Below, piece by piece: positions 29,762 through 59,850 of a stretch of DNA of 64,000 bases. Each line of letters opens with the position of its first letter. Positions within the stretch are counted from its first letter, which is position 1. Origin of the DNA: Rhodocollybia butyracea (taxonomy: Eukaryota > Basidiomycota > Agaricomycetes > Agaricales > Omphalotaceae). The notes beneath the pieces were generated by a model. It ran no database searches, was not told the origin of the DNA, and was given only the letters and a program-made list of their open reading frames with translations. The stretch covers positions 1 through 64,000 of the forward strand of contig JADNRY010000246.1 in NCBI GenBank assembly GCA_015501585.1. The letters run 5' to 3'. Position numbers and translations under genes: made by a program.

Positions 29762-30125
29762 CACTACGGGAAGGAAAAACAATCAATTTGATTGTCTGAG
29801 TCAATCATTTTTTGAAAAAACAATCATTTAGATGTTTTTTTGCCAAACACTCATTTTGATTGTCTTGAGCAAACAATCATTTAGAATGCCCACAATTTAA
29901 GACAATCATTTGGATTGCCTAGTATTAAGGACAATCATTTGGATTGTCTTGAGTAAGCAATCATTTTGAGTGCCCAACCCAAGACAATCATTTGGATTGC
30001 CAACTATTAAGGACAATCAAAATGATTGTCTTGAGCAAACAATCATTAAGAGTGCTCAACCCAAGACAATCAGTGAGATTGTCTCCTATTGAGGGCAATC
30101 ATTTGGATTGCCTTTGAATCATTCA
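29762..30125. repeat. Left terminal repeat and subterminal array of the CACTA-type element
   Basis: At least a dozen copies of CAATCATTTGGATTG-like units, in both orientations (ATTG...CAAT), spaced 15-40 bp. The first unit forms part of the terminal inverted repeat. Such arrays are thought to bind the transposase. Confidence 0.85.
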
Positions 30126-30179
30126 GGTGGTTTGTAACTTATGGTTACAGAACCATACCATATAGGCCCCTCACAGTTC

Positions 30180-30310
30180 ATGGTACAGTATGGCTTACAG
30201 TACAGTAAATACTATTTACTGTACTGTAAGCCATACTGCGGCGGTAACAATACGACTGATATGGCTATTTAGTAAATAGCCATATCAGTTGTATTGTTAC
30301 GGCTGTAGTA
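30180..30310. repeat. Two adjacent near-perfect palindromes
   Basis: CAGTATGGCTTACAGTACAG...CTGTACTGTAAGCCATACTG is followed within a few bases by GGTAACAATACGACTGATAT...ATATCAGTTGTATTGTTAC. Sequence to the right (GGTGGGAGTCACCTTGAGAC, about 30,430) resembles the hAT-like element at 49,036-49,645 (GGTGGGAGCCACCTTGAGAT), so this may be a diverged relative of that family. Confidence 0.8.
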
Positions 30311-30948
30311 AATACAGTGTATCAGAAAACCTGAGCAAAACCAACTGTGTGTTCACTGAACAAGTTATTTCCCAACACACACCTAATTTACAATACTTTT
30401 GGCCACACAAATCCCTTTTATTTAGCTGGTGGGAGTCACCTTGAGACAAAGCCGGACTACTGACATCTCCAGAAGTCTAGATCAACTTCCTTTCCCTGTG
30501 TTGTAGTTGCCGATCCGACGATGACATCATGTCAATTGGGTACTAATTCTCTTCCGATGTAGCTTACTGATATACTTGCCAAGCTACTTACTAATACCTA
30601 TGGTAGACACCTCGTAGAGTACCCGGACTGTAGTATATAAGGCCTGGTATGAAGTCCAAGTAATATAGAGCAATAGAGTACTTGTTCCCCAATCTCCTGT
30701 GGGAGCCTCATGGCTCAGTCCAAGTCCCCACTGCGCCTGATACCTACGACACCCTGTTGTATTCATAATTTCACAGTGCAAGCAAGAAATAGTTCATCAA
30801 AACACATTTATGAGTTCCAAATGTACCCAATTGAGGACCCTCAGTGCTCAAATTTTCCCAATATGATACAGTACAGCCATAATTTCATTGTTACTGTAAG
30901 TACTTTCAGGCCCACAGCCCCATTTGTACGGTATGGATACAGCTCACC
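30310..30948. other. Parent-element sequence without a recognisable gene
   Basis: No coding region supported. The part near 30,430 is similar to the interior of the MITE at 49 kb. Confidence 0.4.
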
Positions 30949-31653
30949 TAGTGATGTGCGGGGCCGGGCTGGGCCTGAAGCCCGCAGGCCAGGCCAGGGC
31001 CACCTGAAAGCAAGGCTCAAGCCCAAAGCCCAAGCCCGGCCCCAAAAAGCCCAAGCCCGGGGCTTGGCCCGGGCCATAAAGCTCAACTTTTTTGCTTTGT
31101 TCTATGCACCTTTTGAGCCTTGGTTTACCCCAATTACAGTATGTATCTTATTAACTTTGTCCCCGAGCCATTGAAAGGCTGTCGTTTCGTATTGACAGAC
31201 ACTCCGAAATGGTCACACGATATTGACAGAACCACGGTTTATTCTCTGGCGAGACACAATGTGCTACAAGCGGCAGAGAAACAAAGAAGACGACTAAACA
31301 AGAATAAGAACAACAATCATGGTGGGGATACTCTACTGAAGAAGGATAACGAAATGAAGATATAAAAGGACAGTGGCAGTGTAGAAGCACGTGTGAGTAT
31401 GTGCCATACCTACAGCCATCCCAATGACCATATACTTAAGCACACAAGGATTAAGTTAGCCAATGGACACATGTATCATCACATGCAAACTCTCCCATTG
31501 GTACTCAGTAGTCTAGGTAACGTTAACTATTAGTAGCCTCCATAGTAATGAAATTCTGACTGCCTAGGACAAGACTAGGATGGAGTCTATAGTAACTACA
31601 AGCAAGCTATAACTTATGATTTGACTCACAAGTCAAAGTTGGGTGACACAAGA

Positions 31654-32101
31654 TGTAAGAGCTAACGAAGTACGCAGTAAGCTACAGCTCAGAGATAAGA
31701 GAACACTCTGTATTGATAAATACCTAACGAAGTAGGCAGTAAGCTACAGCTATGGACCTCATCAGTAAAAGTAAGTACAAAGGAAGTAAGTAGGCTCACC
31801 TCAGAGATAAGAGAACACTCTGAGGGGAGCTGATATGAAGTATCTACGAATATAAGTAAAAGATACGCGGCCTCTGCGGGCGGTGCGGAAATACAAATAG
31901 GCTATGAAACAAGGTACAAACATATAATAGTGCATGTTTAAAGATAGGATCAAGAAATATACCGCAGGATGAGACACTTTGTGGAGTAATGAGCCGAAAT
32001 ACCTAGTCCGGCGCTCGGAAAGTCCCATCTTAGTGATCAATCCCAATGATGTCACCGCATTTATGGAAAATCGCATGACGTCATAAGAATCAATTCCAAC
32101 A
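31654..32101 (-). repeat. 3' LTR of the copia element (448 bp)
   Basis: On the minus strand it starts TGTTGGAATTG directly after the purine tract and ends AGCTCTTACA, the usual TG...CA. Its last 249 bp match 36,919-37,167 with two mismatches and no gaps. Confidence 0.85.
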
Positions 32102-32108
32102 CTCCCCC

Positions 32109-33290
32109 TCAAAGCGAGCTCAGCCCAAGTTCCAAAGAGAAGTGCTTAACCTTTGCAGAAGGTAAAGCTTTAGTGAGAGTGTTGGCGACCATATCCTCGG
32201 TAGGACAATAAACCAAATGAATAGAACCTTCACTGACAACCCAGCGAATAAAATGATAATGAATGTCGATGTGTTTAGTACGAGCATGATATTGATGATC
32301 TTTAGCAAGAGCAATAGCAGATTGATTATCGGAGAAAAGAGTTGTTGGATCATGGAGGGGATAGAAGACTTGAGTCAGAAGGCTCTGAAGCCAGAGACCT
32401 TCTTTGGCGGCATGAGTAGCGGCGACATATTCAGATTCTGTAGTTGATAGAGTAACCATTTCCTGTTGTTTAGAAGCCCATGAAACAGCGCCACCATTGA
32501 GAATAAATGCATACCTGGTGACAGCATGCCTGTCCTCCGCCATATTCCCATCTGCATTGGCATACCCAATCAAGTTTCTCTCTGCTCCGCCATAAGTCAA
32601 CCATAGGTCCCTTGTACCGTTCAGGTACCTAAACACACACTTCACAGCATCCCAGTGCTCCTGTCCTGGATTCTTGGTGTATTGTGAGAGTGTAGTGACA
32701 GCGAACGCAATATCGGGTCGAGCTCCAAGCATCGCCCACATCAGTGAGCCAATAGCTTCATGGTAGGGGATGTCGTGCATAGCAGCAATATTGGTAGTGG
32801 AAGAGGGAGATTGCGTGGAAGAAAGGTGAGCATTTGGATCCATAGGGAGGGAAACAGGCTTCAGATCGCTGAATCCATATCGGCGGATAATAGAGTCTAG
32901 ATAGGCGTGCTGTGAGAGCGCCAGAGTTTGGCCCTCGATCCCGAGAATCCAATGTAGAGCCCCTAAGTCAGTGACTTCGACATGGCTCCGCACACCGTTC
33001 TTTACCTTCTCGACATCAGCCAATGTTGATCCCACCACTGTACAATCGTCAACATGCACAGCGATAACAATACTCTTTCCAGCTTCCTTCTTGTAGAAGA
33101 CTGCCTGATCCACTTTGCACAGCTTGAACCCTAACTTGCCAACCAAAATCTCTACCAACCGCTGATACCAGCGACGACCGCTCTGCTTCAAGCCATAAAG
33201 AGTTTTGAGGAGATGGAGGACATGACGAGATGATGTACTGGGTTCTGGAAAGCCAGGAGGTTTGTTTTGCATCATTGATGAATGAGACAT
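32109..33290 (-). pseudogene. copia reverse transcriptase (partial) and RNase H
   Basis: 393 codons are open. Seen: PPGFPEPSTSSRHVLHLLKT, KTLYGLKQSGRRWYQRLVE, the catalytic-region motif VIAVHVDDCTVVG (usual YVDD is HVDD here, common in copia), HWILGI, DIAFAVTTLSQYTKNPG, VSWASKQQEMVTLSTTESEY (RNase H), the DNQSAIALAKDH motif, RTKHIDIHYHFIRWVV, and the terminal region VANTLTKALP. The protein begins about where the second quarter of the RT domain should be; upstream palm and finger segments are lost. The stop lies 8 bp from the LTR, the normal position. Confidence 0.9.
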
Positions 33291-33296
33291 AGTAGC

Positions 33297-33535
33297 ACTT
33301 TCCTCACAGAGACTGAACCGGTGCTGGACCCCATAAGTCTGAGTGGACTACCTCGCCAAAAACCTTGGCCCTGGATCCTTCCTGTCTCTCCTTTGGTACA
33401 GGCTTGCGTGTAGCCTTGGCATAAATGCAGGACTTCATTCTCGAGTTGAACACCTGTAGCAAAACCTTTTGTAACCATTTGGCAAGCAACTTTAGGTGAG
33501 ATATGACCCATGCACTTATGGAGTTGGTCTAACGT
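33297..33535 (-). pseudogene. copia pre-integrase domain, start of integrase
   Basis: TLDQLHKCMGHISPKVACQM is the gag_pre-integrase zinc-binding region. A frame break follows, then KPVPKERQEGSRAKVFGEVV and HSDLWGPAPVQSL, which holds the first catalytic Asp of the integrase DDE core. The sequence then jumps directly into the reverse transcriptase, so the rest of integrase has been deleted. Confidence 0.8.
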
Positions 33536-35377
33536 TATTTGGGTATTTACGTGTAGGTATGCGAAAGGTGCTATAAAACAACCTAACAAAAACACTACCG
33601 CACCTAACCAGACTATCGATATGTAAGGGAGCGAGGGCGGGTTGTCAGAGATTCCCCGAGGGAAAGCTTTGTAATATCGGATGTACGCGCGCGACTGCTC
33701 CAGGTTCAAGACTGTAGCGCTAACGTGGGTAACTAAGCTTAGACAACTCTTAGAACTAAGTCGAGAGAAGCCTAGTTGGGGTGTACGAGTGTACGAGGGA
33801 AACCAGATGTGTATGTCCAAATCAATTAACCAAAACCAAAACCAATACAACGAAACTAAGATTCTCCTAGGCAAACTCTGGCTCTAGCTAGAATAGTAAT
33901 CTCGAGGTTTGTCAACAACCCTAGGCAAACTCTGGCACTAGCTGCTGTGACGCTGTAAAGTCCTCGACCAAACTCTGGGCCAAGCTACGATATTGTGAGT
34001 GAACTTAATCACTAGGAACTCGTACCACAATCTTAGCGGCTCGTCTAACTTCGTGAAGAAGTCAACTAAGGAACCCTCACTCTGGAGCCGAATAATCCCT
34101 TACTAGAAGCCGTCCCCTCTAAGGAAGCAACTAGATTTGAGTTGATCTGGAGTTCGAGAGAACTCTACACACTTAAATTTGATCAAGATATAAATGGGCT
34201 TTGCGAAGCGCGTGAAGTTTATTACTTTCTTAAGATAACCAAGTCAGGAGGCGTCACGCTACTGATCCCGTGGGGACGTTCTACGGAGCACTGGTCTTAG
34301 CAGTCAAGTCGAGGGCAAGAAACTTGTCTTATTGAATAAATATATCTGGCTTATATACTGAGTAGAGAGAGTTTAATACGAAAAATAGACGAAACAGATA
34401 CGGAGAGAGACGGAAAGAGAGTGGAACAGAGGAATCTGGCTCGGAAAGGAAACTCCAGCCTATATATGGTACACACGATAAAGAAATAGTCCATTCTTGG
34501 GTATATATCAGAGGTAAAATATGATTTCGTGAGGATTAACATAGTTTTAGAGTGTTTTGATCCGAGCGAGGTTTCTCCGATTACTCCACAATTCTCCGGG
34601 GTCAGGAGTACCTTTGCGCTTCATGATCACTCGCCGCCCGGTTTCCCTTGGGTGAGTTTCATTCTATTCCTCGGATAGTTCTGTCCATCCTGAGTGTGAT
34701 TAACATTCTCTCGAGAAGGCCTGTTATCTAGCTTTCCAACGACACCACTTATGATAATCTCGAGCAACTGCGCTGAGTATGTACAAGTGATTCCCGATAG
34801 TCGGCTTTAACGGATAAGACCTCCCGTGTATGATTTCTAAGATCAAATGTTTCGATTTGCCAAGGCTATCCCGGCGCGTAGCTTTCCGTAGGACCGCTAA
34901 GTATGTTTCTACCGTCCTCACGGTTACGACCGGTGCCGCGAATAGACCTCTACGGTTTCCCTCGGGATTGTTCTGGTCCACTGTTACGGACTGTAAAGTC
35001 CACATCTTAACATAGCTCGTTGGGGGTCTTAGTGCGAGGGATGCCTTCCCTCATAATTCCTTCCCTCGAGTAACGCGTTGGCTTAGTACTTATCCCGCTT
35101 CGAGATGTCCTGTAGTTTAGAGAGTCTACACTCTTTGGGTATAACTAGATTGACGATCTAGCGTTACATCTCCGGGCAGCCCAGGTATCCTCACTAGCTT
35201 GGCTCTAGGCTACGCTTGTGGGCGTACCTTCACGGCTCGCTGAGTATTATTGTTAAGTTCTTTGCCTCGGCAACAGCTATCACGCTCGGGCTCCGTATAA
35301 CTCTCTTATTGCATTGTATAACACGTACAAAGTGTCAAAATGTACGGTTACACGCCTTAGGCCGATTTTAGGCCTAA
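33536..35377. mobile_element. 1.84-kb non-coding insertion in the copia pol gene
   Basis: TAACGT flanks both sides (33,530-33,535 and 35,378-35,383). Removing the insert and one copy joins the minus-strand codons ALEMIT to LDQLHKCMGH in frame. The insert has no convincing coding region and no TG...CA or inverted termini that I can see. It contains internal repeats (CTAGGCAAACTCTGGC twice, at about 33,868 and 33,931). It may be an LTR-type or other non-autonomous element; class not established. Confidence 0.8.
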
Positions 35378-35949
35378 TAACGTGATCATCTCCAGCGCCG
35401 CAGCTTCCCCATCCGCAACCTTTCGGTCAACTCGATAAGCACCTCCCTTGTTCTTGGGGACCTCTCTGACGATCTCACCACCAGGCGCACGGATAGTGCA
35501 CTTACCATCCGCAAACATTGCTGTAAAACCGTGGTCATCAAGCTTTCCGATGGAGACAAGAGTGTAAGCGACTTCGGGGGAATACATGACTTCAGTGAGT
35601 TTGAGCTTGTTGACATCCATGCCAGCAGGAACATCCACCGTGATAGAACCAGTGCCAGTGGCACTAAATGTCTCTTTGTTTGTGGTACAAAAGGACTTTG
35701 GACGAATTGCTTCGCAGTTCTCAAAGTCATTGCGGTAAGGACGGTGCAGCCAGAGTTGTATAGCTCAGAGCGAGCACAGGAGGGGGCGCCTCCATCATTC
35801 ATGACAGGAGCTGCAAGAAGAGAGGAAGAGTCAGAGTGGGTAGACATAACGTCACTCCAGTCTTCTTCAAAGCCATCGGGTAGATCCGGGACTTCAGCAT
35901 CACCCATGTCCGAGAACAGCAAAAGACCATCGCCGTCGTCAGACACCAT
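35357..35949 (-). pseudogene. copia protease region, frameshifted
   Basis: SELYNSGCT (usual D-S-G active-site triplet reads N-S-G) is followed in another frame by MDVPAGMDVNKLKLTEVMYS and PEVAYTLVSIGKLDDHGFTA, the protease-to-pre-integrase linker typical of copia polyproteins. At least one frameshift separates it from gag. Confidence 0.8.
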
Positions 35950-36890
35950 GTTGTTACCACTGTATGAGATGTGGAGTCGCTCCAGGGATCCTCATCATCA
36001 ACAGCAAAGGCACCGCCTGCTTCCCAATTGGAATCAGACTCGACCGCCCCTGCATTACCTTTGGATCCTTGACCAGACCCGGATACTTTGACTTTGCAGT
36101 CACGCTTCAAGTGTCCCTCCTTTCCGCATTTCCAGCAGGTATGCTTCGACTTCTGCGCAGACTTCTGAGGCTGTGCTGATGAGCTCACAGCAAGTGCCTT
36201 GTCATCGTTGTTCTTATCTTTCTGCTTCCCTCCCTGAGCATTCTGTCGACTTTTCTGGTGGTTGTACTCTTCGGCAACAGCCTGAGCAAGGACCGTTGGT
36301 GAAACAACCTTGGTCTTGTCGATAATGCGGGTAGACGAAATGATGGAGGAAGCAAAGGTGGAGTAGTAATGAGGGATACCCCGGAGGATAGTAGAATGAT
36401 GGTCCGAATCGTCAATAGCGACACCTACAGCGGCAAGTTTCTCTTTTTTTGTGCTCAGGTCTTCTAGGAATTGATGAACATTACCCTTTGCAGGGCAAGT
36501 AGAGTCCATAAACCCACCTCGAAGGTCAACTTCAGCATAGCCAGACTTTTCCGTGAACTCGGAAACAACGGCGGTCCATGCTTCAGTAACAGTACCAAAA
36601 TGCGCAATCTTCAGTGCAGTGGAATCGCAAACCTTGGAAATCAAGAGATTGCAGGCAGTCGCTTCATCCTTTGACCAGGTATGAAGGTCCTCGGCAGACG
36701 CAGCATTAGGACCAGTTAAGATGGGCTTGATGTCGACACCGTCAAAGTGGCCCCACTTGTCTTTGCCTTTAACAGCGGCCTTGAAACAAAGTTTCCAGAT
36801 TGCCCAGTTGGAACCAGAAGCACTGAGTGTAGGGATGTTACTCGGGAGAGTATCAGTGAGCGCATTGACAGTAGTGGCAGACGAAGACAT
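35799..36890 (-). CDS. copia Gag
   Basis: 363 codons open. The N-terminal part matches the retrotransposon capsid-like domain (SNWAIWKLCFKAAVKGKDKW, then the LRGGFMDSTCP and VHQFLEDLSTKKEKLAAVG region). The CCHC zinc knuckle CWKCGKEGHLKRDC lies near residue 255. The C-terminal residues after about 320 run in a shifted frame, so the native fusion to the protease is broken. The protein packages retrotransposon RNA in virus-like particles (family knowledge). Confidence 0.88.
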   Translation of the reverse strand: MSSSATTVNALTDTLPSNIPTLSASGSNWAIWKLCFKAAVKGKDKWGHFDGVDIKPILTGPNAASAEDLHTWSKDEATACNLLISKVCDSTALKIAHFGTVTEAWTAVVSEFTEKSGYAEVDLRGGFMDSTCPAKGNVHQFLEDLSTKKEKLAAVGVAIDDSDHHSTILRGIPHYYSTFASSIISSTRIIDKTKVVSPTVLAQAVAEEYNHQKSRQNAQGGKQKDKNNDDKALAVSSSAQPQKSAQKSKHTCWKCGKEGHLKRDCKVKVSGSGQGSKGNAGAVESDSNWEAGGAFAVDDEDPWSDSTSHTVVTTWCLTTAMVFCCSRTWVMLKSRIYPMALKKTGVTLCLPTLTLPLFLQLLS

Positions 36891-36918
36891 AGTTGAGCAA
36901 TTCGGGGGCCCGATAACC

Positions 36919-37167
36919 TGTAAGAGCTAACAAAGTACGCAGTAAGCTACAGCTCAGAGATAAGAGAACACTCTGTATTGATAAATACCTAACGAAGTAG
37001 GCAGTAAGCTACAGCTATGGACCTCATCAGTAAAAGTAAGTACAAAGGAAGTAAGTAGGCTCACCTCAGAGATAAGAGAACACTCTGAGGGGAGCTGATA
37101 TGAAGTATCTACGAATATAAGTAAAAGATACGCGGCCTCTGCAGGCGGTGCGGAAATACAAATAGGC
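36919..37167 (-). repeat. 5' LTR fragment of the copia element
   Basis: Matches the last 249 bp of the 3' LTR (two mismatches). The first ~200 bp of the LTR are missing and replaced by unrelated sequence (GCACAGGTATGGTCTTGG...), so the copia promoter is lost or truncated. Confidence 0.85.
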
Positions 37168-37432
37168 ACAGGTATGGTCTTGGGTATGGTACATGTGCAA
37201 CTTATAGGATACAATGATGCTCAGGGTCTTACAAAATGCCAAATAAAATGATATCCCCCGAGAAACAATTGCTGAGCAAAGCCCGGGCTTTGGCCCCAGG
37301 CCACAGGCCTACAGGATCCAAGCCTGAGCCCAAGGCCGGTGAGGCCCACCATATGGGCCAGGCCAGGCCGGGTCAAGCCAGGCTTGCGGGCTTTGGCCCG
37401 GCCCCGCACCGGCGCACATCACTAAACTCACC

Positions 37433-39831: not shown

Positions 39832-40300
39832 TTAATAAAATCACTTTTTTTTTTTTTTTTTTTTTTTTTTTTGAGGTACGTGTTTACAAGGAAACATTAG
39901 CACAGGCAACCGTATACTAGACTGGCCCACTGTACTACGTAATTTGTGAAGGGGAACTTCCGAAGAAAAACCTTCATGGAGGTAGGGAGAAAATGGAAAC
40001 CTCCACCGAGGAAATGCATGATGAGTAGAGACTCTGCACGCAGCTTTCACTACAGTGTGGGGCTTCGAGCGCTGCCAGGTTCATGGTGATCCTTGGCTAT
40101 TCCGCATCTGTGTCTGTGTGTAGACTCTGCGGTCGGTACTGATTCAGAGGCCCGATACCCACTAAAACCTCGGGTTCTCCAGTCCAATCAATTTGCGAGT
40201 CATGTGACTCCTCAATAACCTTACTCCATGTCTGAAGTACGAGCTTTTTTGTTAAAGCTCTTTTTTGCCAGCGAGGGGCATAGGTCAGTATCTGATCCCT

Positions 40301-43300
40301 TCAAATTCGTTGATTCAGAACTTGACACAAGCGTCCATGCACTTCTTTTTCAGAAACGTCTTCATTATCTCGGTCTATGACACATTCACAGCGGATCTTC
40401 CAGATAAGGTGGGCACTTTTAGTAACCAGGATTGTAAAAAGGCGCTTGACTCCTGGCATAGGTTTGCCATCCTGGCTTCTGAATTCAAGGGTATTACATC
40501 CTAATATGATCCCCATAGAGGGTTCTGGCCAATCGCCATAGTCATGGTCTTTGGGCCATAGATCTTTTGCTATGTCCCATATGAGACGGCACCATGGTCT
40601 CTTACAGTGGAGCAGTATGTGCTCCAGGTCTTCTGTTGCACCACAATCAGAGCAGGTGGCCCGCTCCTCATATCCTGGAATGTGTTTCCAGTATTTTCCA
40701 ACTTTGTGGGCACCATGAAGTGCTGTCCACATGAAGTTTCGGGCTCGCCTTGAGATGTCTGTGTCTCGTATTGACTTCCAGATTGCCTCAGGTTGGGGTT
40801 TCTTCTTGAGTACAGGTGAGATTTCATTTTGGACTTTTTCGATCATGCGTTTAGTTGCAGGCCTAGGCTCGGGCACATTCTGTTCCTTGATAGAGTGGTA
40901 AGCAAGTGCCTGGGTCAGTTTGGTAAGTACAATGCCAGTCACATCACCCTGCATTGAGGGTGATATCTTAAGTTCTGTTCCGTCGGTATTTACTGCAGCC
41001 CCAAATGCCAGTTCATTTGCACCATCATAGGCTCTTTGGTTTTGGCTACGCACAGCCTTCCGGAAGATAGTTGGGGCATTGCGCTTGCGGAGGTGGCTAA
41101 GTATGGCTTTATAGATTGCTGCATCCTTCACTTTAGTGAAGCCCTCCATGTCCCAGTTTGTAAGTCGCTTTGTTATTGATGTGAGTAGTTGCTCATTGGA
41201 TGTGTGACATCGTAGGGGGATGTTAACTGGGGCCTGTGTAAGGATGTGCAATAGCATTGCAGCTGCAGCCGTGGGCGAGGTTTGCCGTTGGTCTGCAGGT
41301 AGAGTGATAGTGGAGTTCCTAGGGTCATTGTCCCCATACCAGGCACCTCCCCCCCCTTGTGCATCTGCTGTCTTGGGGTGTAGACAATGTCCTGCACAGT
41401 AGACGTCTGTTATCTGCTGTGGGTCAGCAATGTCATCAGTGGGCCCGTCAGAGATAGGTAAAGTCCCCCAGTCCCGTTTTGAGAATACCCGGAACCCTTC
41501 AGAGATATTATTGACTACCAGTTTAGTGTCGAACAGGATATCTCCCTCTTCTAATTCAATGTTTGCATAGGTATCTTCACCTGGGACAATTGTAGGATTC
41601 CACTTGTCATATAGGTGATTTAGGCGTTGGGCCACAAACTCAGCACATGCGTGGGGATTAGTACAGTAATTTTTTCGGTCAGTTACACAGGGACCGCAAA
41701 GGCAACATTGTAGGGGGAGGTGATCATTGGCACTGAGGCGTCCTAGCATACGGAGTGCATCCTCAACATAGATTACTCCATGGGTGGAGCGCAAACACCT
41801 GCATCTGGGGGTGTTATTTATTTGTCGCTTATGCTTATTGGCTCTGATATGGTGCCACAAAGGCATGCGGAGCAGTACTGCTCTAGATGGTTTTAAGGCG
41901 TTGAATTCAAGGCCATATTTTTTGGCAGTTTTAATCATATCACAAAGTAATGGCCTTAGGTTCCTAGTGGTAGGCTTCCAATCCTGGAGGAATGAGTTCA
42001 CTCTTGATGCTGGTGCAGCCTGGGATGTTCTCAGGACATTGTTGCTTATGGAGGTGTCAGCCAGGTAGGCCCACCGGGGTCTCTTCTCAGGGTTAAGTTC
42101 AAGGTATTTTTTTGCTCGCATCAGCTGGATTGCCTCATTTCTTGCTTGTAGGTTAAAGATCTTTTTACCTCCCACAGCACTGTCAGTTTCCATAACTGCT
42201 TTGCTGATTGGGGGTTGTAGGAACTCTTGTTGGATCTTCATAAGCCGTTTGGTGATGTGCTCTGGCATACCACTTGCAGCAGTAAGGAACTGGGTTAGGG
42301 AGCCTAGGGTGAGGTTCAGCATGTGCCTTTTGGCTTCAAAGGTGGGGTGCCTTTCTTGGCATCGGCTAAGGATAGACTCAATGCGTTCTATTATTGGGAG
42401 CCAGGGCTGAGCCGGGTCCACACAGTTTCCAATGTGCGCCCCCAGAATGCGAATGGTGGACCCGTCGGGGGTAATTTTTATATGTCCAGGTATGGGGTTT
42501 GTGTCAGGATTAAGTTTGCGGGTGAGAAGGAGATTTCCTCGGTACTCCTCATCCCCTACTGGTACTATCTCAGTTTTGTTCACATTGAATTTTGCACTAG
42601 ATGCCTTGCACCAGTCATCCAGGATTCCCTGGAGGTCATCAAAACTGTCATGTTCCGAGAGGTAGACAGTAGTGTCATCAGCAAAGAGGGATGTGACAAG
42701 GTGTTCTGTTACACCAGGTATCTCAAAGCCGCTGAGCTTTGGGGAGCTACGTAACATCTCTGCCAGTGGCTCAATTGCAAGGTCAAAGAGTATGCAAGAC
42801 AGGGGGTCCCCTTGTCTTACTCCTCTGGTGAGAGTGTATGGGGTGCTGACTTCCCCATTATTATTACACAAGTCTCAGCTCCGGTGTAGAGGTGACGTAC
42901 AGTGTTAATGAAGGAGGCTGGGAGATTAAAAGCCTCTAGGGTCTTCCACAGGTATTTGTGGGACACTCGGTCATATGCTTTTTCCTGGTCTAAAGCAACA
43001 ATGGCTCCGTTCTGGAGCTCATCTTCTGCATACTCAATAAAAGTGCTGGCCAGGTGGATCTGGTCAAGGATGCTCCTTCCTGGGAGGAAGCCTGCTTGGT
43101 CCGGGTGTATGAGGCTTGGTACCACAGCAGTTACTCGTTCAGTAAGTGCTTTTGTGAAAGTTTTGTAGTCTGTGTTCAGCACAGTAATTGGCCTATAATT
43201 TGCAATGTCAGTTACATCTTTTTTCTTATAGATGGGGCACATCCATCCTCTGTTGAAGTGGGTCCCAGGAGTGATACCCCGTATTGCAATGTCATTAAAA

Positions 43301-45337: not shown

Positions 45338-45820
45338 ATCCCGCAGACGATTGGTAAGTTACTCATATATAAGAAGAGGAGGAGAGGACGTCCCCGATCC
45401 CCGGGGACAGGGCTATTCCCATACCTTCACCCCGTTATTGGGTACTGGAGCTTCTGGAATGGGATTATCCGACAAGCCACTCGGCCGGCGACACTGGGTC
45501 ATTGGTGCTAGCAGTGATGGCTAAACACTAGTTATAGTTCAATCAGTTAGTAAGTTGATGCTCAAGGACCCAATTCCTTGGTCAATTGCGGGAATGGCTA
45601 TATCATTCAGGAATGGTTAGGGGGCTAGTTAAGCAATCTAAAGTACAGGGGCATGTATAAGAGGTAGGCATAGACATGATGGTAGGCATAGGTGACAGTT
45701 AGTAGCTAATGCACATGTAGTATGGTCATCGGAGAGACTTTACGAGGCAGCATAGGTGTAGTACAAGAAGAGATGTTACGCCCTACGGTTTCCGCGCCCT
45801 CGATTACCCCCACCACGGCC

Positions 45821-48441: not shown

Positions 48442-49035
48442 GGTTTCGGCTTTGTCAACAGTGCTGGCAAGGCCTAAATGCTGTTTTTTTGCATAGTTTG
48501 TTGTTCACGCAAAGTGTAGGGCAGGTGGTGAGCCATGTCCGTCCAGCGGACATCGAGGAAAGGAAGACTTCCGTTAGCGCCAAGTTGTCAATATTGAGTA
48601 CGTGGCGGCTAGCGCTGGTGATGTCATCTCAATCCAAGTGAAAATCAGTTCCGATTTGGTTAGTACATAGAGACAAAGACGTCTTTCAAGGTTGTTTATG
48701 GTGTGGTTGGTAGCCACTGAGCCACTTCGTAGCTAGCTAGGGTAGACGAGGAGTCTTCTGGGGCGCTGAATGGTAGTACTCGGATGGCTGCTCAATTCGA
48801 CGCCGTTTAGTTAGTTCCGAGGAACCACTAGGGCGTCGAAAGAGAAACCAGAACCGACCTTGCCACTGGTAGTGTGGGAAAGACTCGTGATGGTGGTGGT
48901 ACGAGTTCAAGGAGCGCCCCTTAATAAAATCACTTACCATCCTAAGTACCTCATTTTTGTTGTTTCACCATGATCTTCCAAGCCTAATAAGAACTAAGTT
49001 AACCTCATGTATGCGAATAAGAAGGATGATACATA

Positions 49036-49645
49036 TAGGGCTCTGCACCGGAACCGTACTGTATAGACCTCTGAAGCATCTTGATATGGTACGGCCTATG
49101 ATAGCCGTATTCACCGTATTTTGACAGCCGTTACGGCCGTAAATACGGTATACCAGATAAACTGAGCAAATACGGAGCCTGTTCACTAAAAGTAACATCT
49201 TTCATTTTTTAAGACCCAATTATCTCTTAGGGAACTAGTTTATAACTAGTTTATCATATCTTTCAGCTGTATATATATTTTTTATTAGGTGGTGGGAGCC
49301 ACCTTGAGATGAGCCCGGACTGTCGGCATCTCCGGAACTCCTCATCAACCCCATTTTCTTGCCATATTCTGCCTTGGAAGCAGGAAATAATTGATTAAAC
49401 CTACATCTAAGAGTATCTTCCGCTGATATGAACTTGATTGTAACCATTTTAAGGACCCATGGTACCCAATTTTTTTCTATCTAGTGCCGTACGCCGTATT
49501 GCCGTATTACGGCCGTACTTTTACGGTACTGTATCTGTCAGACACATGGAACTACAGTTGTATGGTACGGTCACAGCCTAATTGTAGCCGTATGGCACCG
49601 TAAAATATACGGCCATAGCCGTATACGGTACGGTGCAGAGCCCTA
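49036..49645. mobile_element. hAT-like MITE (610 bp) with 8-bp duplication
   Basis: Ends TAGGGCTCTGCACCG and its complement CGGTGCAGAGCCCTA, flanked by perfect GATACATA copies (49,028-49,035 and 49,646-49,653). The interior is full of palindromic GCCGTAT/ATACGGC motifs. No coding region. The 8-bp duplication and TAGGG start fit hAT. Confidence 0.9.
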
Positions 49646-49653
49646 GATACATA

Positions 49654-50209: not shown

Positions 50210-50221
50210 CTAGTAGATACC

Positions 50222-50236
50222 CGTGGCGATGCCACG
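50222..50236 (-). terminator. Helitron 3' terminal hairpin
   Basis: Six-base stem CGTGGC/GCCACG with a three-base loop, followed by twelve bases ending CTAG. It serves as the rolling-circle replication stop signal in Helitrons. Confidence 0.85.
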
Positions 50237-50312
50237 AAGAGCACATAAATTGGCAGTTACATATAGTACAATGGTAGTTTGCTCAGCGATATTCAACAAT
50301 AGTTATGTTTAG

Positions 50313-51422
50313 TTATGAGTGGAGCGACCCCCGCTTCGAGTGGATGAACCTGTAGTAGATTTTTCCTCTGCAGTAGATTTTTTCCTTCTTGAGGACAGGT
50401 TCGTCATCCAAATAATCGAGAGCTAAGTCATCAAAATTGGCAACCTGTTTTCGTTTCCCTTTCCGCACACGCACTTGAGCTGTAAGTGGATGTTTAAGTA
50501 ACACATATGAGAGCCACGAAAAGTCAATTTCAAACTTACTGGAAGAGTCCGGGAGAGGATCAGGTGCAGTGGATTGACCTAAAAAGGTAACAGATTCAAC
50601 GGACATGCAGAATCTCTCTGGGTGTTGCTCTTTATCGCCTTCCTTTGGAATGACTCGAGTTAAATACCCTGAAGCTGCCAAAGGCGAGCTTTGCTTTGGA
50701 ACTGGCTTGTTTGACTTTCCTCTTTTGTCAACTTTGTACCGGGGTGAATCTGGAATTATGGCACGTAAAGGAAGGATAGAGTCGTTGCGGCGGTCACTGA
50801 GAACATATGTATACTGCTGGGGATTCATATCAAATGTTGCCTCCTTGGTGATAACATTCTGTGCAATGCCAATCACGTCGATGTAGGGCCGTTGTTTGGG
50901 ATTAGGGGAAGCAACCTCATGTAGCTAGTGAATCTTCAATTTCAATACAAAGATAGTCTGGAGTAGTACATACCCAGGTAACATCGCCAATGAGATCATA
51001 TTCAGAGTCTTCTAACTGTTCTTCTCCAACTTTAATGCCTCCTTCGGGCATTTTTGCAACCTGAATAAATTGAGTCCAAGTCAGTAAAGAGAAGTTGACA
51101 TGATATCGATGCAACATACCAAAGCTCGTATCTCAAATAAACCTTTGTCCCGGAACTGTCGGTCTTCATTGTTGAAATAGCGAAAGGCGCCAAAGAGAGT
51201 TTCGCCTTCAGAGATGTAAAAGTTTGCATCAAAGAGCAAAGATTTGCCTTCAATGATTTGTCCATTCCCGAGCAAGGAAAGACCAGTAAGTTGAGCTGAT
51301 GACATGGTAATAAAGCAGATAGTTTGTAAAAGTGAAGTTGGTTGATCGTGGAGCCGAATGATATCACCTCTTTCACAAAGTGTATAAGGGTCAGACATCA
51401 GAGACGTGTTACGCCAGAGCAA
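50313..51422 (-). CDS. Helitron accessory protein, unknown (possibly OB-fold/ssDNA-binding)
   Basis: Three exons are suggested: 51,422-51,121 (MSDPYTLCERGDIIRLHDQP, then NGQIIEGKSLLFDANFYISE and FRDKGLFEIRALV); 51,062-50,975 (VAKMPEGGIKVGEEQLEDSE, YDLIGDVTWV); and about 50,930-50,313 (LHEVASPNPKQRPYIDVIGI, QQYTYVLSDRRNDSILPLRA, and a basic C-terminus with KGKRKQ). GTATG...CAG/TAG intron borders fit. The alternation of short beta-like segments and the phrase YIDVIGIAQNV...VLSDRR recall an OB-fold, and Helitrons of plants and animals often carry RPA-like proteins, but I do not recognise the family and the function is inference. It lies inside the Helitron downstream of the helicase, on the same strand, and appears unbroken. 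Confidence 0.55.
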
Positions 51423-51546
51423 TGGAGAAATCGTTCTAAGAGATCATGTGACCGCTTTGTCGAGTGAGTCACCAGCATGAATCGCTCGGAACTGCTCTGC
51501 ACCTTTGCTCATACAGTTAAAATTATAAAAGTGAACTCAAGATATA

Positions 51547-54500
51547 CTAATCATTGAAAACTTCTGGATATACAATATTTCTAGTAATATTCAAAGGAGC
51601 ATCTGGACTAAGGAGAACTTTCACCCGATTTTGAGATGTAACTCTTGAGAAAGCAACATAGAGTTGACCATGTGTAAAAACGGGGACACAAAGGTCCAAG
51701 CCAACGTGTGTAACAGATTGACCCTGTGCTTTATTTATTGAGATCGCAAATGCAAGACGGATAGGAAATTGGCGGCGTTTAAGAACAAATGAGTATTCAG
51801 ATGTATTGGTGGAGGGTGTAAGGCTTATTCGAGGAATGAATACATTTTCACCATTGTGTTCACCACCAAGGATAGAAGCTTCAAGAACACGCTCTGAAAG
51901 GCGGCGCAGTAACAGTCGGGTACCATTACATAGACCACGTGCAGGGGCAAGATTACGCAAAAGAATAACTGGACATCCTGGTTTGAGCTTCAGCTCTCCT
52001 GGTGGTAGTCCAGAAGCAGTGAGAGAGCGCAGATATTCGATGGGAATGGCATCATTAAGTCTGGTCATCAGCTCCACGCTCCGTAACAACAGAGTCAGCA
52101 CTGAAGAAAACTGAAGTGTCTCCAGGAATGCGGTTGAGAATATCATTGTTGATTTCATCCACGTCTCGATTCCTTGGTGCAAGGATTATGCGTTCTGAAA
52201 AGAAACATGGAGGCGGGGTGATCTGATCGAGGTGAGGATAAATGAAGTCGATGAGAGCACTTGGGTTTTCTACACGCATATTAGCAGGAAAACTTATTGA
52301 GGAGTCGGGATGATGAGTGGAACAACCATGTCCAATGTCCAACAGCCATTGAGCGAAAGCTTCCTCCTCTGTACCCTCTTCAAGGCGTTCATTTTTTGTG
52401 AGAGTCAAAATCTTGGTTTGAGTCCAAAGTACAGAACGTCGAAAACATGCATCAACAATCTCTTCTTGACTTCCTTTTGGAACAACAGGCAAAATTTGTT
52501 GAAAGTCACCTCCAAATACAATGGTCAAGCCACCAAATAGTCGATCATCATCTCGAATATCTCGCAGAGTACGTTCCAGACACTCATGTGTTCGACGGTG
52601 ATGCATAAGAGCTTCATCCCAGATGATAAGGTCAGCTGCACAGAGAAGGCCTGCTGGCATACTTTCTTTGGGGATAGCACAGAATGATTCATCGCAAAGA
52701 CCTTCAATGGGAATTTTGAATAGTGAGTGAGCAGTACGGCCACCAGGAATTAAAAGTGCTGCAATACCCAAAGAAGCACAACAAAGGACAACCTTAGAGT
52801 TGCCTCGAAGATAATGACATAATGTAGTGTACACGAAAGTTTTTCCCGTTCCCCCAGGACCATGGAGAAAGAACAACTTGCCTAAAGCATGGGCAACAGA
52901 ATCCGTAATGGTATCAAATGCATAACGCTGTTCTACATTCAACATTGGGATGCGGTGAAGTGCATGGTGATGTTCGTCATCAGTATTATAATCAAGCTGT
53001 TCTCCAATCAAAGGATTGTCAACTTCACGAACCCAGTCATGTTGTTGTCAGGAAGTGAACATTTCCTGACCGACAAATTGGACACATGATTGAGCACATG
53101 ATTGTCTCAATGTTGTATTAATGACATTTGATAACAAACGAGTCATATGGTCTAATTTCGGGTGCAATATAATGACCCGGAACCCGGAACCGGAAATGAA
53201 TTATATTATATGAGTCAAAATGACTCGGAACATGACTCGGAATGACTCAATATGACTTAGGTAGCTAGTATAAATACCGCTCAGTAGATACATTGTACCC
53301 CAGCCTTGTTATTTTGGAACTATTACCTTTGTGCAGCATAGCTGTGAATTGAACCTTGATATGAATCTTAGTTGCTAACTGTGAATATCCAGAAGCATCA
53401 CCAATTACCTGCTTACAACAGAAGAATCCCTGCTTATTACAGAAGAACCACCTTTACCTGCTCACCACAGAAGAACTACTTTTACCTGCTTACCACAGAA
53501 GACGTCACATCTGTTTGATCAGAATACCAGAATATTACCTGTTAACACAGAAGAACCATCAGAAACCACACTGTTAAATCAGCAACACCAAACTCGATAT
53601 TGTAGTAAATCTGCCCAACGGGCCCCTCGCTATACTGTACATTGGGAAGATCTAATTGTGAACGGATCTTTACAGTTGTGGAAGAGGCATGGGTGGAAAG
53701 GTTGATAATGAACAACCAGACTCGAGAAGAATGTGACTCAAGAGATAAAGGCCATAGTCAAAGGTCTCATCATCAGAGGGATCACAATGGCCCATACATA
53801 TGAGGCGATAGCGGAGGTCATCACAGATAAAGTGTTGAAATTCCAACCAAAGAGTCTCTGGCTGTGTGGGCAAGCAGAACAGGAGAATTGTTGCAAAGAG
53901 AAGTCGAAGTCGAGTCCCAGTTTGCATTTGGGCAGCTTCTTCGAGACATTTTTTCCATTCTCCATCATCTTCAAGAAGACCACATGCAAGGCAAGCATTG
54001 CGGAATGAGTCGTAGAGTGTCCCTATGCACTATAAGTAAAGAGATTATGGATATGAAACGGAATAACATACCTTCATAAGTGCGCAAATCCTCAAATGAT
54101 TTAGGACCTTTCATGACTGTTAACAGAGTCCGCATGTAGAAACGTTTGCCACTACGTGGTGAAACAAAGAACATACGACCCAATGCAAAACCTTGCTTCC
54201 ATGGAGACCAGGACTTTGTATCGTCCTTCCATGTGAAAGACTGTGGGAATTCTTGGTATGTATACTGGTGAGCAACTAAATCTGCTTCATCGGAAATACG
54301 ATTTGCGGCAAAGAATGCAGTGAGCTTGGTGTGCTCATTTCGAGCACGTTCCAAGACTACGTGATGATCTTCGTTGGGGTCATAGTTAACCATATGTTGT
54401 CAACACCAGGGAGATGAACCTGTAGCTGAACGACATTTGGAACCTGTCTGTGTACATCAAAATGGAAAATACGCCAAAGTGCTTCAGGAGGTCCAATGTA

Positions 54501-57500
54501 GCGTCCATCAATATACCGTTTGATTTCGTCACGTTCAAGCTCTAGGGTTGCTCGATCACCACCTTTGTGGATGTACTTGAATGGATATTTGATAGAACGG
54601 ATGTTGACAGCACATTTAACATTGATATGACAGTCATACCGAGCACTGAGGTAGGGACAGTATGGGACAATGAAGCGGTTATCAATATGATGACCTTGAA
54701 CTTCATAAGCACAACCGACATTGGGTTGTGCATAGAGAGGATAACCATCTTCATCCATTGTGGTGAACTCTTGAAAGTGTTTCAGATAGTGTTTGGTGCA
54801 GTTTCCTGATTCCATGCAAGGAGCACGCCAATCATAGGCGCCACAAGGACCATGGACCATACACTTTTTGACGGTGTGGAAGAGCATTGGTTGTGTAACA
54901 GGATCTGGCCATTTTGCGGAGATACAAGAATCAATGGCATTGGGTGTTAAAAGTTTGAACAGATCTTTAAGGAAAATGAGGAGATGAATATGAGGGAGAC
55001 CACGTTTCTGGAACTCGATTGTGTAGACGTAAGCAACAGCATTGCCAAATATGCCGTCTTTAGAGATTTCGTCCAGCAGACTCCTCTTCTTCAACTGGAA
55101 CACTCGTGCAACCAGATCCGGACAATCATATGCAGTTTGACCAGGGAGAAGCTCGCGGGTAATTTCGTCCCATTCCGGATTCGCAGTCATGGTCAAAAAG
55201 ATATCTACTTTGTGGTAATATCGAGCGATAGCCATAGCATCCTGGAATCGCTGTTGCATATGACGGGGTCCACCAATGTATGATGATGGCAATATGAAAC
55301 GTTGACCTAGTGCATTGAGGTCAACATTGTTGTCGCCATGTTCAACAGCATCTTCTAGACCACTGTAAAGGGAGGCACGTAGCTTTCCCTGATTCTTATA
55401 ATGCCAGTTTAGCTTGTTCTGGTCGGCACAAGCCCACATGTCAACAGTGTATTGCTGCAGAAGACGTCCACCACGAAGGATTGTAGAAAATTCACCATGA
55501 CAGGGATGAAGACGAAAAGCAGCATGTCGAGATTGGGAAAGGCGCCGACCGGGAGAGCCATCTTCTTGCTGGAGTCGCAGACCTTCATGCCATCCCGGTT
55601 CACCATATGGAAAGAGGAGGACATAATGTAAAGGTGCATAGGCTGAGTGACGATCACTGATACGGGTGAGCGTAGGTTCACCACCACAAACACGTCTCCT
55701 GAGCAGGATGTCGCGAGTATCTTTAGGTAGAGATTCTCCAGGGAGGATCATTGCAACCTCGTCTGCTTTTGGGAGATTATATCGTCAAACGTCATTTGAA
55801 GGCATAACACGCAGACGGATTGTTGCTTCCTCGACACCACCATAATTACAGAGAACTTCATGAGCATGTTGGTAAATAGCATGGTACGGGTTATATTCAC
55901 GAACGACATTCTGTAAAGAAGACATAGTCGACATACGGACATTAGGGTTTCTGTTCATGCGCTGCTGTAATGATATAGTTGGGTCATAAAAATATACCTG
56001 CGCATAGCTTGGAGACTGTCCAGAAGGAGGTTCAAGAGCACTGGAAAGATGGCATAGCTTCCCTTGAATCCGGAACACCCAATTTCGAGGACCATAATGG
56101 TTCACAGTACGATCAATGTTATCTGCACCAAGCGATGTAAAGGCAAGGGCAGCATTGTACTGTGTGATGTTATCACAAAACTCAGCAGCTTCAGCATCTA
56201 TTCCAGTATAAAGGCCCATAAGATACCGAGGTGGTGGCTGAAGTGTCGACAATTGAACCTGGCCACTCTCGCAACAGGCTCCAAACAGCTTTGTTTTCTG
56301 AACCTGTTCGGCTTCCCAGTAATATGCATCGCAGTAAGGACATCGCAAGTTCATTGGTCCAAGATCATGACATGAACGTGGCTCTTGATAAGGCTTCCTG
56401 GCAATACAGAAAAGATCTCGAGAGGTTTCGGTAACTGAAATAGCTATTAAGACAAATTATACACACACAAAATGAAAGATGAGACTTACAAAAAAGAACT
56501 GGTTGAGTAGGTTCAGGAGATTGAAGATGGCGTGAGCGATGACAATATCGGGGTTGATGTCGGAGAGCTATACATACATTTTAAAAAAGTAAGATAACTA
56601 TATCGAAAATATGAAGAAAAAACTAACCAATGTCCTCAGGAGTAAAAGAATCATGAAACGGCAGAGAAGAACGCCCTGGAGAATCTATCAAATTGAAAAG
56701 AATGAAGTTTTGATTTAAGGGGACCACATACCCATGTGTACATTGCTAGATTGGAAAGTTGGAGGAGGCGTTGGAAGTTGACGGTTAATAACAACAGAAG
56801 AACCTTTCAATGAACCAATTATGTGAGGATATACACACATCAAGTGATAAATATGCATTACCATGAAGACCTCGCATGGAGGAAGTAGTATTATTGAAAG
56901 CTGCATTAGAAAGAAAGATAAAGTAAATCGGCTGAGTCAAGAAAAGTAGTTGCTTACCATGTTCTCTTGATGATGAATAATCGAGGGAAGAGGACAAGTA
57001 ACGATGAGGATGGTCATATGAATCAGGGTCATGGAGGACTGATGATTGGAGGGGACGTTCTTGGGCACGTTGGGCATGTGGATCCCAGTATTGATTGCTG
57101 GGACCAGGGGAAGACTACAACAAAACAAAGACGAATGAAAAAGAAAAAAAGTAGTCGCAAAAAGCAACGGACCTGTCGAACAATATTACGGGATTGTCTA
57201 TGTCGCGAATTGTCGTATTCAGACAGAGCCTAAGAGTGCACGATAATTAGGATGCAGTTGTAGTACATAAAAAACAAAAGTATAAACCAAAAAATCCAGA
57301 TTTTCTTTGGTTCTCGGGCTTTTACGCTTCGTAGGACTAGCTGGAGGATGGTGGTCACGGAAAAGATGGCGAGCACGTTCCTGTTGTCTCTGGGGTGTAT
57401 TTATGACATCAGTAAGTTGGTTCTGAGAGCTGTTTTGAGTCGTCAAAAAAGAATCGGGAGTGAGGATATTAAAATTAGAATCATCAGGACCGCGGCAATT

Positions 57501-57644
57501 CCGAGAGCTGTTTTGAGTCGTTGAAAAAGACTCAGGAGTGAGGATATTATTAAAATTAGAATTGTCAGAACCGCGGCGATTCCGAGAGCTGTTTTGAGTC
57601 GTTGAAAAGGACTCAGGAGTGAGCATATTGAAATCAGAGAACAT
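51547..57644 (-). pseudogene. Helitron RepHel transposase (HUH nuclease + PIF1-like helicase)
   Basis: The N-terminal part (57,644-57,219) has a threefold repeat of LTPESFSTTQNSSRN type. After introns, 56,354-54,357 holds the Helitron_like_N/Rep domain: VDIFLTMTANPEWDEI, the HUH motif FQKRGLPHIHLLIFL and the tyrosine region KYPFKYIHKGGDRATLE. Helicase: VEQRYAFDTI, Walker A GPGGTGKTF, Walker B LIIWDEALM, GGDFQQILPV, and near the C-terminus SINKAQGQSVTHVGLDLC, then GQLYVAFSRVTS. The enzyme nicks and unwinds DNA for rolling-circle transposition. Lesions: TGA at 55,787-55,785 (expected CGA), a 2-bp AT duplication near 54,385, the solo LTR at 53,046-53,674 and a one-base loss near 52,070. Confidence 0.9.
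53046..53674 (+). mobile_element. Solo LTR (629 bp) in the Helitron helicase gene
   Basis: Starts TGTCAGGAAGTG and ends GATCTTTACA, flanked by perfect GTTGT duplications (53,041-53,045 and 53,675-53,679). A TATAAATA motif at about 53,269 indicates plus-strand polarity. Its removal joins the transposase codons PPMPLPQ to HDWVREVDNP in frame. Likely Ty3/gypsy type, by length and the TGTCAGGAA start; produced by recombination between two LTRs. Confidence 0.92.
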
Positions 57645-57816
57645 TTTTGTTGAGACGGATGAAGAAGAGGTGAAAGAACGGAAAAGAGTCGCGTGATCGC
57701 GATGTTAGTGACGCTGGCAGTGGCAGTGGAGCAGCGGAGAGTCGGAGACGACTGGACTCAGAGACACTGGAGACCGAACACGTGAGGCTGATAACCCCAT
57801 AAACTATACTTCCTGA

Positions 57817-58690
57817 TTGGGCGGCTCCACTTGCCTTCTTTTAGCCCTTCGGTCTATTGTAGATTACCGGCAGCCACACTTCAACACCACACCGTTTCCT
57901 TCCACAATGACATTCTTCTCTCTTTTAGTCCAGTTCTTTACCTTTCGTGGTGTCATTCCCCTCTAAACTCAAGCAGCTCTTTCTTCTGGGTTATCGACGG
58001 TAGGTATTGGAGCTCGGTTTCTTCGTCGGAGCCTCCGCCTTGGGCAGAAGACATGGGCGAGAGGCTTCAAGGGTTTTGGCCTCGTGCAAGAGGAGGATTG
58101 GATGGAGGGAAATTGGCCGTATTTAGGGAAACTAGTCGCAAATGGTTTGTTGAATACCTGTAGCGCATGTGAGTGAGTACGCCAGTTAACCCGGGACTTG
58201 GCCCGCCCTGCTCACTGATGGTGTTAAGCATAGCCAAACTGACGGGGTAATTGCTAGGTACTTTCAACACCACCATGCAAGTATACGATGCATCAACAAT
58301 ACAGGGCTGGCTGCAGCCGTCAACCACAACTCAACGCTACACCGTCTAACTCCATCCACAGCACGAGCACCCAGGTCAACAGAACTTCTGGGGTCAACGG
58401 CGACGAGACTTCCTGAGCACGGCAAGGGTGCGTGCGTTCCTTTAATCCTCTTTCTCTCCCGTTTCTCATGCGCACGTCCCATCCCTTTATTCCTTTCATC
58501 CCTCTGGTGAACTCCGCCGGCGGCTGGATTGTCTTGACATAGTGCCAGCCGCCGTTGTGGGAACACTCGATTCCGCGGCGATGAACGGTTCTCCTCCCAA
58601 TAGCCACTACCGGTCCCTATGCCCAATACCCGGCCTCTCAACGGAAGGTGTCTTGGCTCGGCACCGTAGGCCTGTCCTTGCCTCAAAGCA
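57817..58690. other. Parent-element sequence without a recognisable gene
   Basis: Short open frames on both strands with no family resemblance. Confidence 0.4.
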
Positions 58691-59235
58691 CTCCATGCGT
58701 ATCGTCATTTCTCTGCAAGCGTATCGTCCTATCTCTCCCCACGTGTCTCCCTGCGTATTGTTTCTCTCTCAGCGTATCATTTCTCTCTCTCTGCGTATCA
58801 TTTCTCTCTCTCTGCGTATCATTTCTCTCTCTCTCTCTGTATCATTTCTCTCTCTGCATTTCATTTCTCTCTCTGCGTATCATCTTTCTCTCTACATATC
58901 GTTTCTCTCTCTCTCTCTCTGTGTATTCTCTGTGTATCATTTCTCTCTCTCTCTCTCTCTGTGTATCGTTTCTCTCTCTGCATATTATTTCTCTCTCCAT
59001 GTATTGTTTCTCTCTCCGTGTATTGTTTCTCTCTCCGTTTATCTTTCTCTCTCTGCTTATTGTTTCTCTCTGTATTGTGGTTTCTCTCTCTGTACCATCT
59101 TTTCTCTTCATGTATCATTGTTTTTCTCCTTGCATCCTCCGCGCATCATTCTCTCTGTGTATCATTGTCTCTCCCCACGTTGTCATTTCTCCCTTCGCGT
59201 ATATCCTTGTTTGTCTCCACAGTATGTAGTTTTTT
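58690..59235. repeat. TC-rich minisatellite
   Basis: Degenerate units around TTTCTCTCTCTGCGTATCAT are repeated more than 20 times. They keep long frames open on both strands (Phe/Leu/Ser-rich on one, Arg/Glu-rich on the other), which are low-complexity artefacts. Confidence 0.9.
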
Positions 59236-59344
59236 CTGTTGCCATTTGCAGATCTCTGGTTTGTCAACTCGCTTCAAGTTCTAAGTTGCTCTGTAATGTA
59301 GGAAATATATTTTTACCTCTAAAAGCAAGTGAAAAACCCATTGT

Positions 59345-59846
59345 ACCCTAAATGATTGTTCATACATTCAGAATGATTGCCCAAGGCACTTAAAAAGATT
59401 GTTCAAGACAGTCCAAATGATTGTTATAAGCACTCAGAGTGATTGATAGACAATCCCAATGATTGTCTGAAGACAATCTGACCCATTACCAAAAACAATC
59501 ATTTTGAGTGTCCTGAACAGTCAATTTGAGTGTTTCATACCATCATTTAGAGTGTTTTTGACAATCATTTAGATTGGTTCAAACTATCATATTGAAAGGT
59601 TTTGACAATCAGTAAGAGTGGTTCAGACAATCATTAAAAGTGGTTCAGAGTTCTTCAGACAATCTTTAAGAGTGATTTATACAATCAATAAGATTGGTTC
59701 AGACAATCAATATGAAGGTATAAGACAATCTTTTTGAGTAAACTGGACAATCATTAAGAATGGTTCAGACAATCAATATGAGTGCAAGACAATCATTTAG
59801 ATTGTGTTTTGGACAATCAAATTAATTGTTTTTACTTCCCGTAGTG
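59345..59846. repeat. Right subterminal array and terminal repeat of the CACTA-type element
   Basis: About twenty ACAATCATT-like units in both orientations, more diverged than on the left, ending in the terminal inverted repeat (complement of CACTACGGGAAG). Confidence 0.85.
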
Positions 59847-59850
59847 CGTT

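Follow-up and report, generated by a model that had tools for sequence, protein, structure and literature searches.

How large is the mobile core of a DNA transposon whose two ends lie 30 kb apart, and in what order did its contents arrive? These questions are raised by a locus of Rhodocollybia butyracea, a forest-litter decomposer according to an excerpt of PMC8480192. In the window, i.e. the whole stretch of 64,000 nucleotides that was analysed (C546:1-64000), a CACTA-like element spans 30,085 bp, which very probably goes back to a non-autonomous element of ~6.0 kb that inserted once and within which at least eight other elements are nested. Its outer parts are the following:

29758..29761, target-site duplication CGTT, left (read from the flank)
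29762..59846, CACTA-like element, whole, 30,085 bp
29762..29796, + strand, left terminal inverted repeat, 35 nt, beginning CACTACGGGAAG, 94% complementary to 59812-59846
29762..30114, + strand, left subterminal repeat array
59350..59846, + strand, right subterminal repeat array
59812..59846, - strand, right terminal inverted repeat
59847..59850, target-site duplication CGTT, right (read from the flank)

An earlier note, made from the letters of this DNA alone, had described inverted termini about 30 kb apart, subterminal arrays inside both and a CGTT duplication outside both. Indeed, a 35-nt, 94% inverted repeat is found at 29762 and 59846, ACAATCATTT-type repeats make up the arrays inside both ends, and CGTT is present on either side.

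The same note had proposed a comparison with a stretch lacking the insertion, and contig C544 provides one. Here, DNA alignment joins window position 29761 to 59847 at a single CGTT, which contradicts two independent ends. Compared with the window flanks, C544 carries 16/726, 6/1,013 and 27/1,723 substitutions, together 49/3,462 or 1.4%, along with small gaps and one 187-bp stretch missing from C544. When both flanks are joined, a methyltransferase-like reading frame crosses the junction point, its two parts lying on either side of the insertion:

29522..29761, + strand, methyltransferase-like pseudogene, upstream part, interrupted by the insertion
59851..60072, + strand, methyltransferase-like pseudogene, downstream part, same frame, one in-frame stop

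The protein of the joined frame has its match on C544 at 97% along the full 154 positions, an in-frame stop (TAG) of the same kind being present in both. The insertion is also missing from a paralogue on C438 (82%), and further paralogues, e.g. two on C594 at 64 and 66%, read through the junction point free of stops. The Pfam methyltransferase match of the frame is weak (E 0.0006-0.004, below the cut-offs), and the window piece of the pseudogene alone gave no Pfam match. The presence of the insertion on one of two near-identical stretches probably reflects two haplotypes. Elsewhere, methyltransferase matches on C643 and C258 have near-equal scores and an identical spacing of 1,540 bases, a hint that both haplotypes are present in places of the assembly. 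The 187-bp stretch that is in the window (28848-29034) and not in C544 has inverted ends, CTGCAAAACCTGGG..CCCAGGTTTTGCAG, and is probably a second, polymorphic miniature inverted-repeat transposable element (MITE), ~0.7 kb from the CACTA-like insertion.

A genome-wide search for other copies with the same termini, likewise suggested beforehand, covered 95.6 Mb in 1,381 contigs. The exact 12-mer end was counted 191 times (93+98), its reversed control 11 times (10+1); for a 35-nt end pattern that leaves three positions free, the counts are 98 (44+54) and 0. The window ends far exceed chance expectation. By hand, adjacent ends were assembled into 29 end pairs, leaving out C572, whose ends are at least 97 kb apart; the listed pairs range from 5.7 to 46.8 kb (median 9.9 kb). 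Both flanks were read for 17 of the 29, window included: nine have a target duplication of 4 bp, one of 3 bp, one of 5 bp and six none, while mispaired flanks gave a 4-bp match in 6/272. Apart from the window element, ten copies show a 3-5 bp duplication; their lengths are 6.7-12.4 kb. In the window, subtracting the five direct insertions leaves a backbone of 5,982 bp (with the Helitron end placed at 57863). The proposal that this is an unusually large DNA transposon is not supported by these figures: the core is ~6.0 kb, same-ended pairs cover the range given above, and the Starships of Pezizomycotina reach up to ~700 kb according to an excerpt of PMC12134995. The distance between two CACTA ends should not be taken for the size of the mobile core.

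Two other very long end pairs share these ends, C552:446-47249 (46.8 kb) and C547:29237-53394 (24.2 kb). On C701, a copy of the long interspersed nuclear element (LINE) described below (36034-46898) starts ~0.2 kb inside another CACTA-like terminus (35830); LINE insertion into the same-ended family is thus not unique to the window. A literature search with CACTACGGGAA returned matches only in papers titled on other subjects, and among the matches listed in the literature searches none describes the window element.

Within the backbone we count eight nested insertions, four levels deep, the count being a minimum. Listed by position, with LTR for long terminal repeat, they are:

30499..30751, solo LTR 1 (TG..CA), target-site duplication CCCTG at 30494-30498 and 30752-30756
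30949..37424, hAT-like element 1, with TAGTGATGTGC..GCACATCACTA as its inverted ends, interrupted by the copia element
31654..37167, - strand, copia retrotransposon, LTRs at 31654-31902 and 36919-37167, gag and RVT_2 domains
33536..35379, 1.84-kb high-copy repeat in copia, starting TATTTGGG and ending CCTAATA, ACGT on both sides
39847..48920, - strand, LINE, poly(A) at the 39847 side, RVT_1 domain
49036..49645, hAT-like MITE 2, TAGGGCTCTGCACCG ends, exact 8-bp target-site duplication GATACATA
50210..57863, - strand, Helitron, 5′ TC and 3′ CTAG, inserted between A and T
53046..53674, solo LTR 2, inside the Helitron, target-site duplication GTTGT

Solo LTR 1, hAT-like element 1, the LINE, MITE 2 and the Helitron sit directly in the backbone. 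The three secondary insertions are copia in hAT-like element 1, the 1.84-kb repeat in copia and solo LTR 2 in the Helitron, so that the deepest chain runs from the CACTA-like element through hAT-like element 1 and copia to the 1.84-kb repeat. Six of the eight show an exact target duplication (for the Helitron, its A/T flanks), one agrees at 7/8 bases and one has none.

The copia element and the LINE, both expected from the earlier note, are identified by LTRs or a target duplication together with Pfam domains. The two copia LTRs are identical at 247/249 positions, and no integrase domain was found in the three frames scanned. The LINE is flanked by a 15-bp duplication, TTAATAAAATCACTT, at 39832-39846 and 48921-48935. 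Helitrons begin with 5′ TC, end with 3′ CTRR and insert between A and T. The Helitron that had been proposed here shows these ends together with replication (Rep) and helicase domains (Helitron_like_N, PIF1 and Pif1_2B), in interrupted frames that may contain introns. Of the two proposed hAT-like MITEs, both have inverted ends and 8-bp flanks; element 1 is split by copia, and its flanks, AGCTCACC and AACTCACC, agree at 7/8 positions. We take the end types of both to be hAT, an assignment suggested by inverted ends and 8-bp flanking repeats; no hAT transposase turned up, no search aimed at one having been made. The inventory itself needed revision: all the elements listed earlier are present, the 1.84-kb repeat (33536-35379) was missing from the list, and in place of one solo LTR there are two, at 30499-30751 and within the Helitron at 53046-53674. 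Target-site evidence, claimed for most nested elements, is full or near in 7/8 and absent for copia. The 1.84-kb repeat has TATT..AATA ends, and one near-full-length match to it lies inside the 24-kb end pair on C547. A CT-rich tandem array of TCTCTCTGCGTATC-type units (window 58746-59071) lies to the right of the Helitron, ahead of the right subterminal array.

Several of these insertions are absent from a relative on contig C956, which is colinear with the backbone, inverted, and carries the same terminus at the one end seen. At the solo LTR 1 site C956 has a single CCCTG without the element, and at the Helitron site it reads CCAA|TTAC, again without the element. The LINE and MITE 2 are missing as well, along with some of the surrounding backbone. 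At the hAT-like element 1 site the element is likewise lacking, and AGCTCAGTGCTCACC (AGCTCA-GT-GCTCACC) stands where one AGCTCACC is expected. Excision of hAT elements leaves a footprint of extra bases, and the extra bases in C956 look like such a footprint rather than a plainly empty site. On C3, C514, C521 and C638 the backbone matches end at the Helitron edges, and the match on C956 ends within 13 bases of them, while C1299 holds backbone from both sides of the LINE and MITE 2 with 60 bases between (by match coordinates). With C544 lacking the whole insertion and relatives lacking nested elements, the layered insertion history that had been claimed for this locus holds, and the order of events becomes readable at one fungal locus.

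As to the class of the outer element, its termini start with CACTA and are inverted, and short-repeat arrays lie subterminally, as in EnSpm/CACTA (tnp2) elements. It differs from these in its target duplication (CGTT, 4 bp, as compared to the 3 bp of EnSpm in excerpts of PMC12730594 and PMC8978399), in the lack of a recognised transposase, and in a length of 30 kb reached through nesting. The CMCT clade comprises EnSpm, Plavaka, ESTA and others, and is characterized, in the excerpt of PMC12730594, by CA..TG ends, duplications of 2-5 bp and the transposase motifs C(2)C and H(3-4)H. The window element shares both the CA..TG ends and a duplication within that range, whereas Plavaka ends are given in the same excerpt as TGT..ACA or CATCA..TGATG, as against CACTACGGGAAG here. 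By its 4-bp duplication, we class it as a CACTA-like member of the wider CMCT clade and not as EnSpm in the strict sense. Profile searches returned 22 tnp2, 138 Plavaka (from the best 123 of 237 candidates) and 144 KDZ matches genome-wide, none of which falls inside the window. Compared by eye with the 29 end pairs, one of the 22 tnp2 matches lies inside a pair, on C472, and none of the 138 Plavaka or 144 KDZ matches does. The C472 element is 10.5 kb long and has the same 12-bp end, a TATA duplication and a Transposase_21/tnp2 domain (E=7.6e-7). The tnp2 matches on C59, C203 and C390 were considered as interior and rejected, each lying on the outer side of a terminus or far off (100 of the 191 exact ends being listed). 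Rfam gave no match at gathering thresholds.

Taken together, the following course of events is very probable. A backbone of ~6.0 kb entered a degenerate methyltransferase-like gene in a single cut-and-paste insertion, duplicating CGTT; a transposase, presumably encoded at another locus, would have recognised the ends and subterminal arrays, which are intact; and other mobile elements, at least eight of them, entered the element, some into one another. The 30-kb length is then accumulated load and not a property of the mobile core. Several points weigh against this account. The flanks of copia disagree (CAAGA vs ACAGG) where a 5-bp duplication is expected; the subterminal repeats of the tnp2-bearing C472 element differ from those of the window element; and the latter is non-autonomous as far as recognised, so that the source of its helper transposase is inferred. 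C544, of which 3.46 kb were compared, could be a recent duplicate and not an allele; in either case, the 30,085 bp represent one derived insertion. Finally, six of the 17 end pairs lack a duplication, which means that chance pairings or decayed duplications exist in this genome. That the window ends likewise come from two different CACTA-like elements, the 30 kb between them being such a pairing, is nevertheless hardly credible, as C544 shows both flanks meeting at one CGTT, the reading frame continues across the join, and a single relative, C956, is colinear with the backbone pieces of the interior. An assembly artefact might be suspected in a repeat-rich region of an assembly of 1,381 contigs; we consider it very unlikely, given that seven of the eight nested elements (all except copia) have the expected edges and full or near target duplications, which a false join would not produce.

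What had arrived by the time the element landed is less clear-cut. The landing is younger than the split between the window flanks and C544, i.e. at most 1.4%, while the backbone differs from C956 at 248/2,563 positions (9.7%); its private history therefore exceeds the time since landing several-fold. Close copies elsewhere in the genome suggest that four of the passengers are young, namely the LINE, copia, the 1.84-kb repeat and solo LTR 2. The 3′ end of the LINE is 100% identical to five copies over 344-357 bp (best 40 of 76 candidates), and a full-length copy on C636 matches at 99%. The 1.84-kb repeat has at least 34 other near-full-length matches and one partial match at 98-100%; for these LINE and repeat figures the best 39 of 1,571 candidates were scored, the window's own copy missing among the matches listed. 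For solo LTR 2, at least 29 copies match at 98-99%, and six of these have a same-strand partner at a distance of 3.6-4.0 kb. For solo LTR 1, by contrast with these, the best other match is 87% (best 40 of 347 candidates). Among the matches listed, MITE 2 reaches 93% at full length and 93-95% for end pieces of 60-86 bases, and for the Helitron a 1.8-kb stretch matches at 83%; the figures for solo LTR 2, full-length MITE 2 and the Helitron come from the best 40 of 160 candidates, those for the MITE 2 end pieces from the best 40 of 77. The 363 bases at the Helitron 5′ end had no other match (11 of 11 candidates scored).

The passengers that lack close copies could well have been on board when the element arrived, as we infer, none being dated directly. 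There is about an even chance that the older ones (solo LTR 1, MITE 2, the Helitron and possibly hAT-like element 1) were aboard before the landing; the unit that moved would then have measured ~14.5 kb or more, and the LINE, copia, the 1.84-kb repeat and solo LTR 2 would have joined after the landing or shortly before it. A landing within the 1.4% split of a backbone 9.7% from C956 fits this, as does the lack of a recent source, among scored matches, for solo LTR 1 (87%), MITE 2 (93%) and the Helitron (83%). The footprint-like bases in C956 would in addition make the hAT insertion older than the split of the two backbones, but they are one sequence, which another element or a small duplication could explain. 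Likewise, the best 40 of 347, 40 of 77 and 40 of 160 candidates were scored, and active sources may be absent from the assembly. Nor did a second composite copy appear: no other match crosses a nested junction by more than ~10 bases at the LINE left edge, both Helitron edges, the MITE 2 right edge or the solo LTR 1/hAT-like element 1 region, where searches scored the best 40 of 76, 11 of 11, 40 of 347 and 40 of 77 candidates and copies of solo LTR 1 crowded out hAT-like element 1. Cut-and-paste movement, though, need not leave a second locus sharing a nested junction. That every passenger instead came after a plain 6-kb element had landed is possible, if rather doubtful. The identical LINE 3′ ends, the copia LTRs at 247/249 and the 98-100% copies of the 1.84-kb repeat and solo LTR 2 agree with late arrival, but at least eight insertions would be needed within 1.4% divergence, three of them by families for which the scored matches include no close copy. 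If the older passengers did move with the backbone, cut-and-paste elements would redistribute unrelated transposons, and other transposon classes would reach new sites with no machinery of their own involved. The earlier statement that the element traps other transposons presupposes a mechanism; passive accumulation is enough to account for the data.

Nested transposon blocks, with layered insertions that each have their own target duplications, are familiar from grass genomes. The present case differs in being fungal and in having a contig without the outermost insertion at hand. Starships, as described in an excerpt of PMC12134995, are likewise large DNA insertions in fungi; they are classified by a tyrosine recombinase and carry cargo genes, as opposed to the inverted-repeat ends of the window element, whose identified content is other transposons. 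No Starship captain tyrosine recombinase was seen among the ten frames scanned, no search aimed at captains having been made. The CACTA-like element is of a known kind, and what makes it notable is the completeness with which its history can be reconstructed. Away from the insertion, a frame on the - strand at window 50-748 has a weak DUF7779 match (E=1.2e-5), just under the cut-off.

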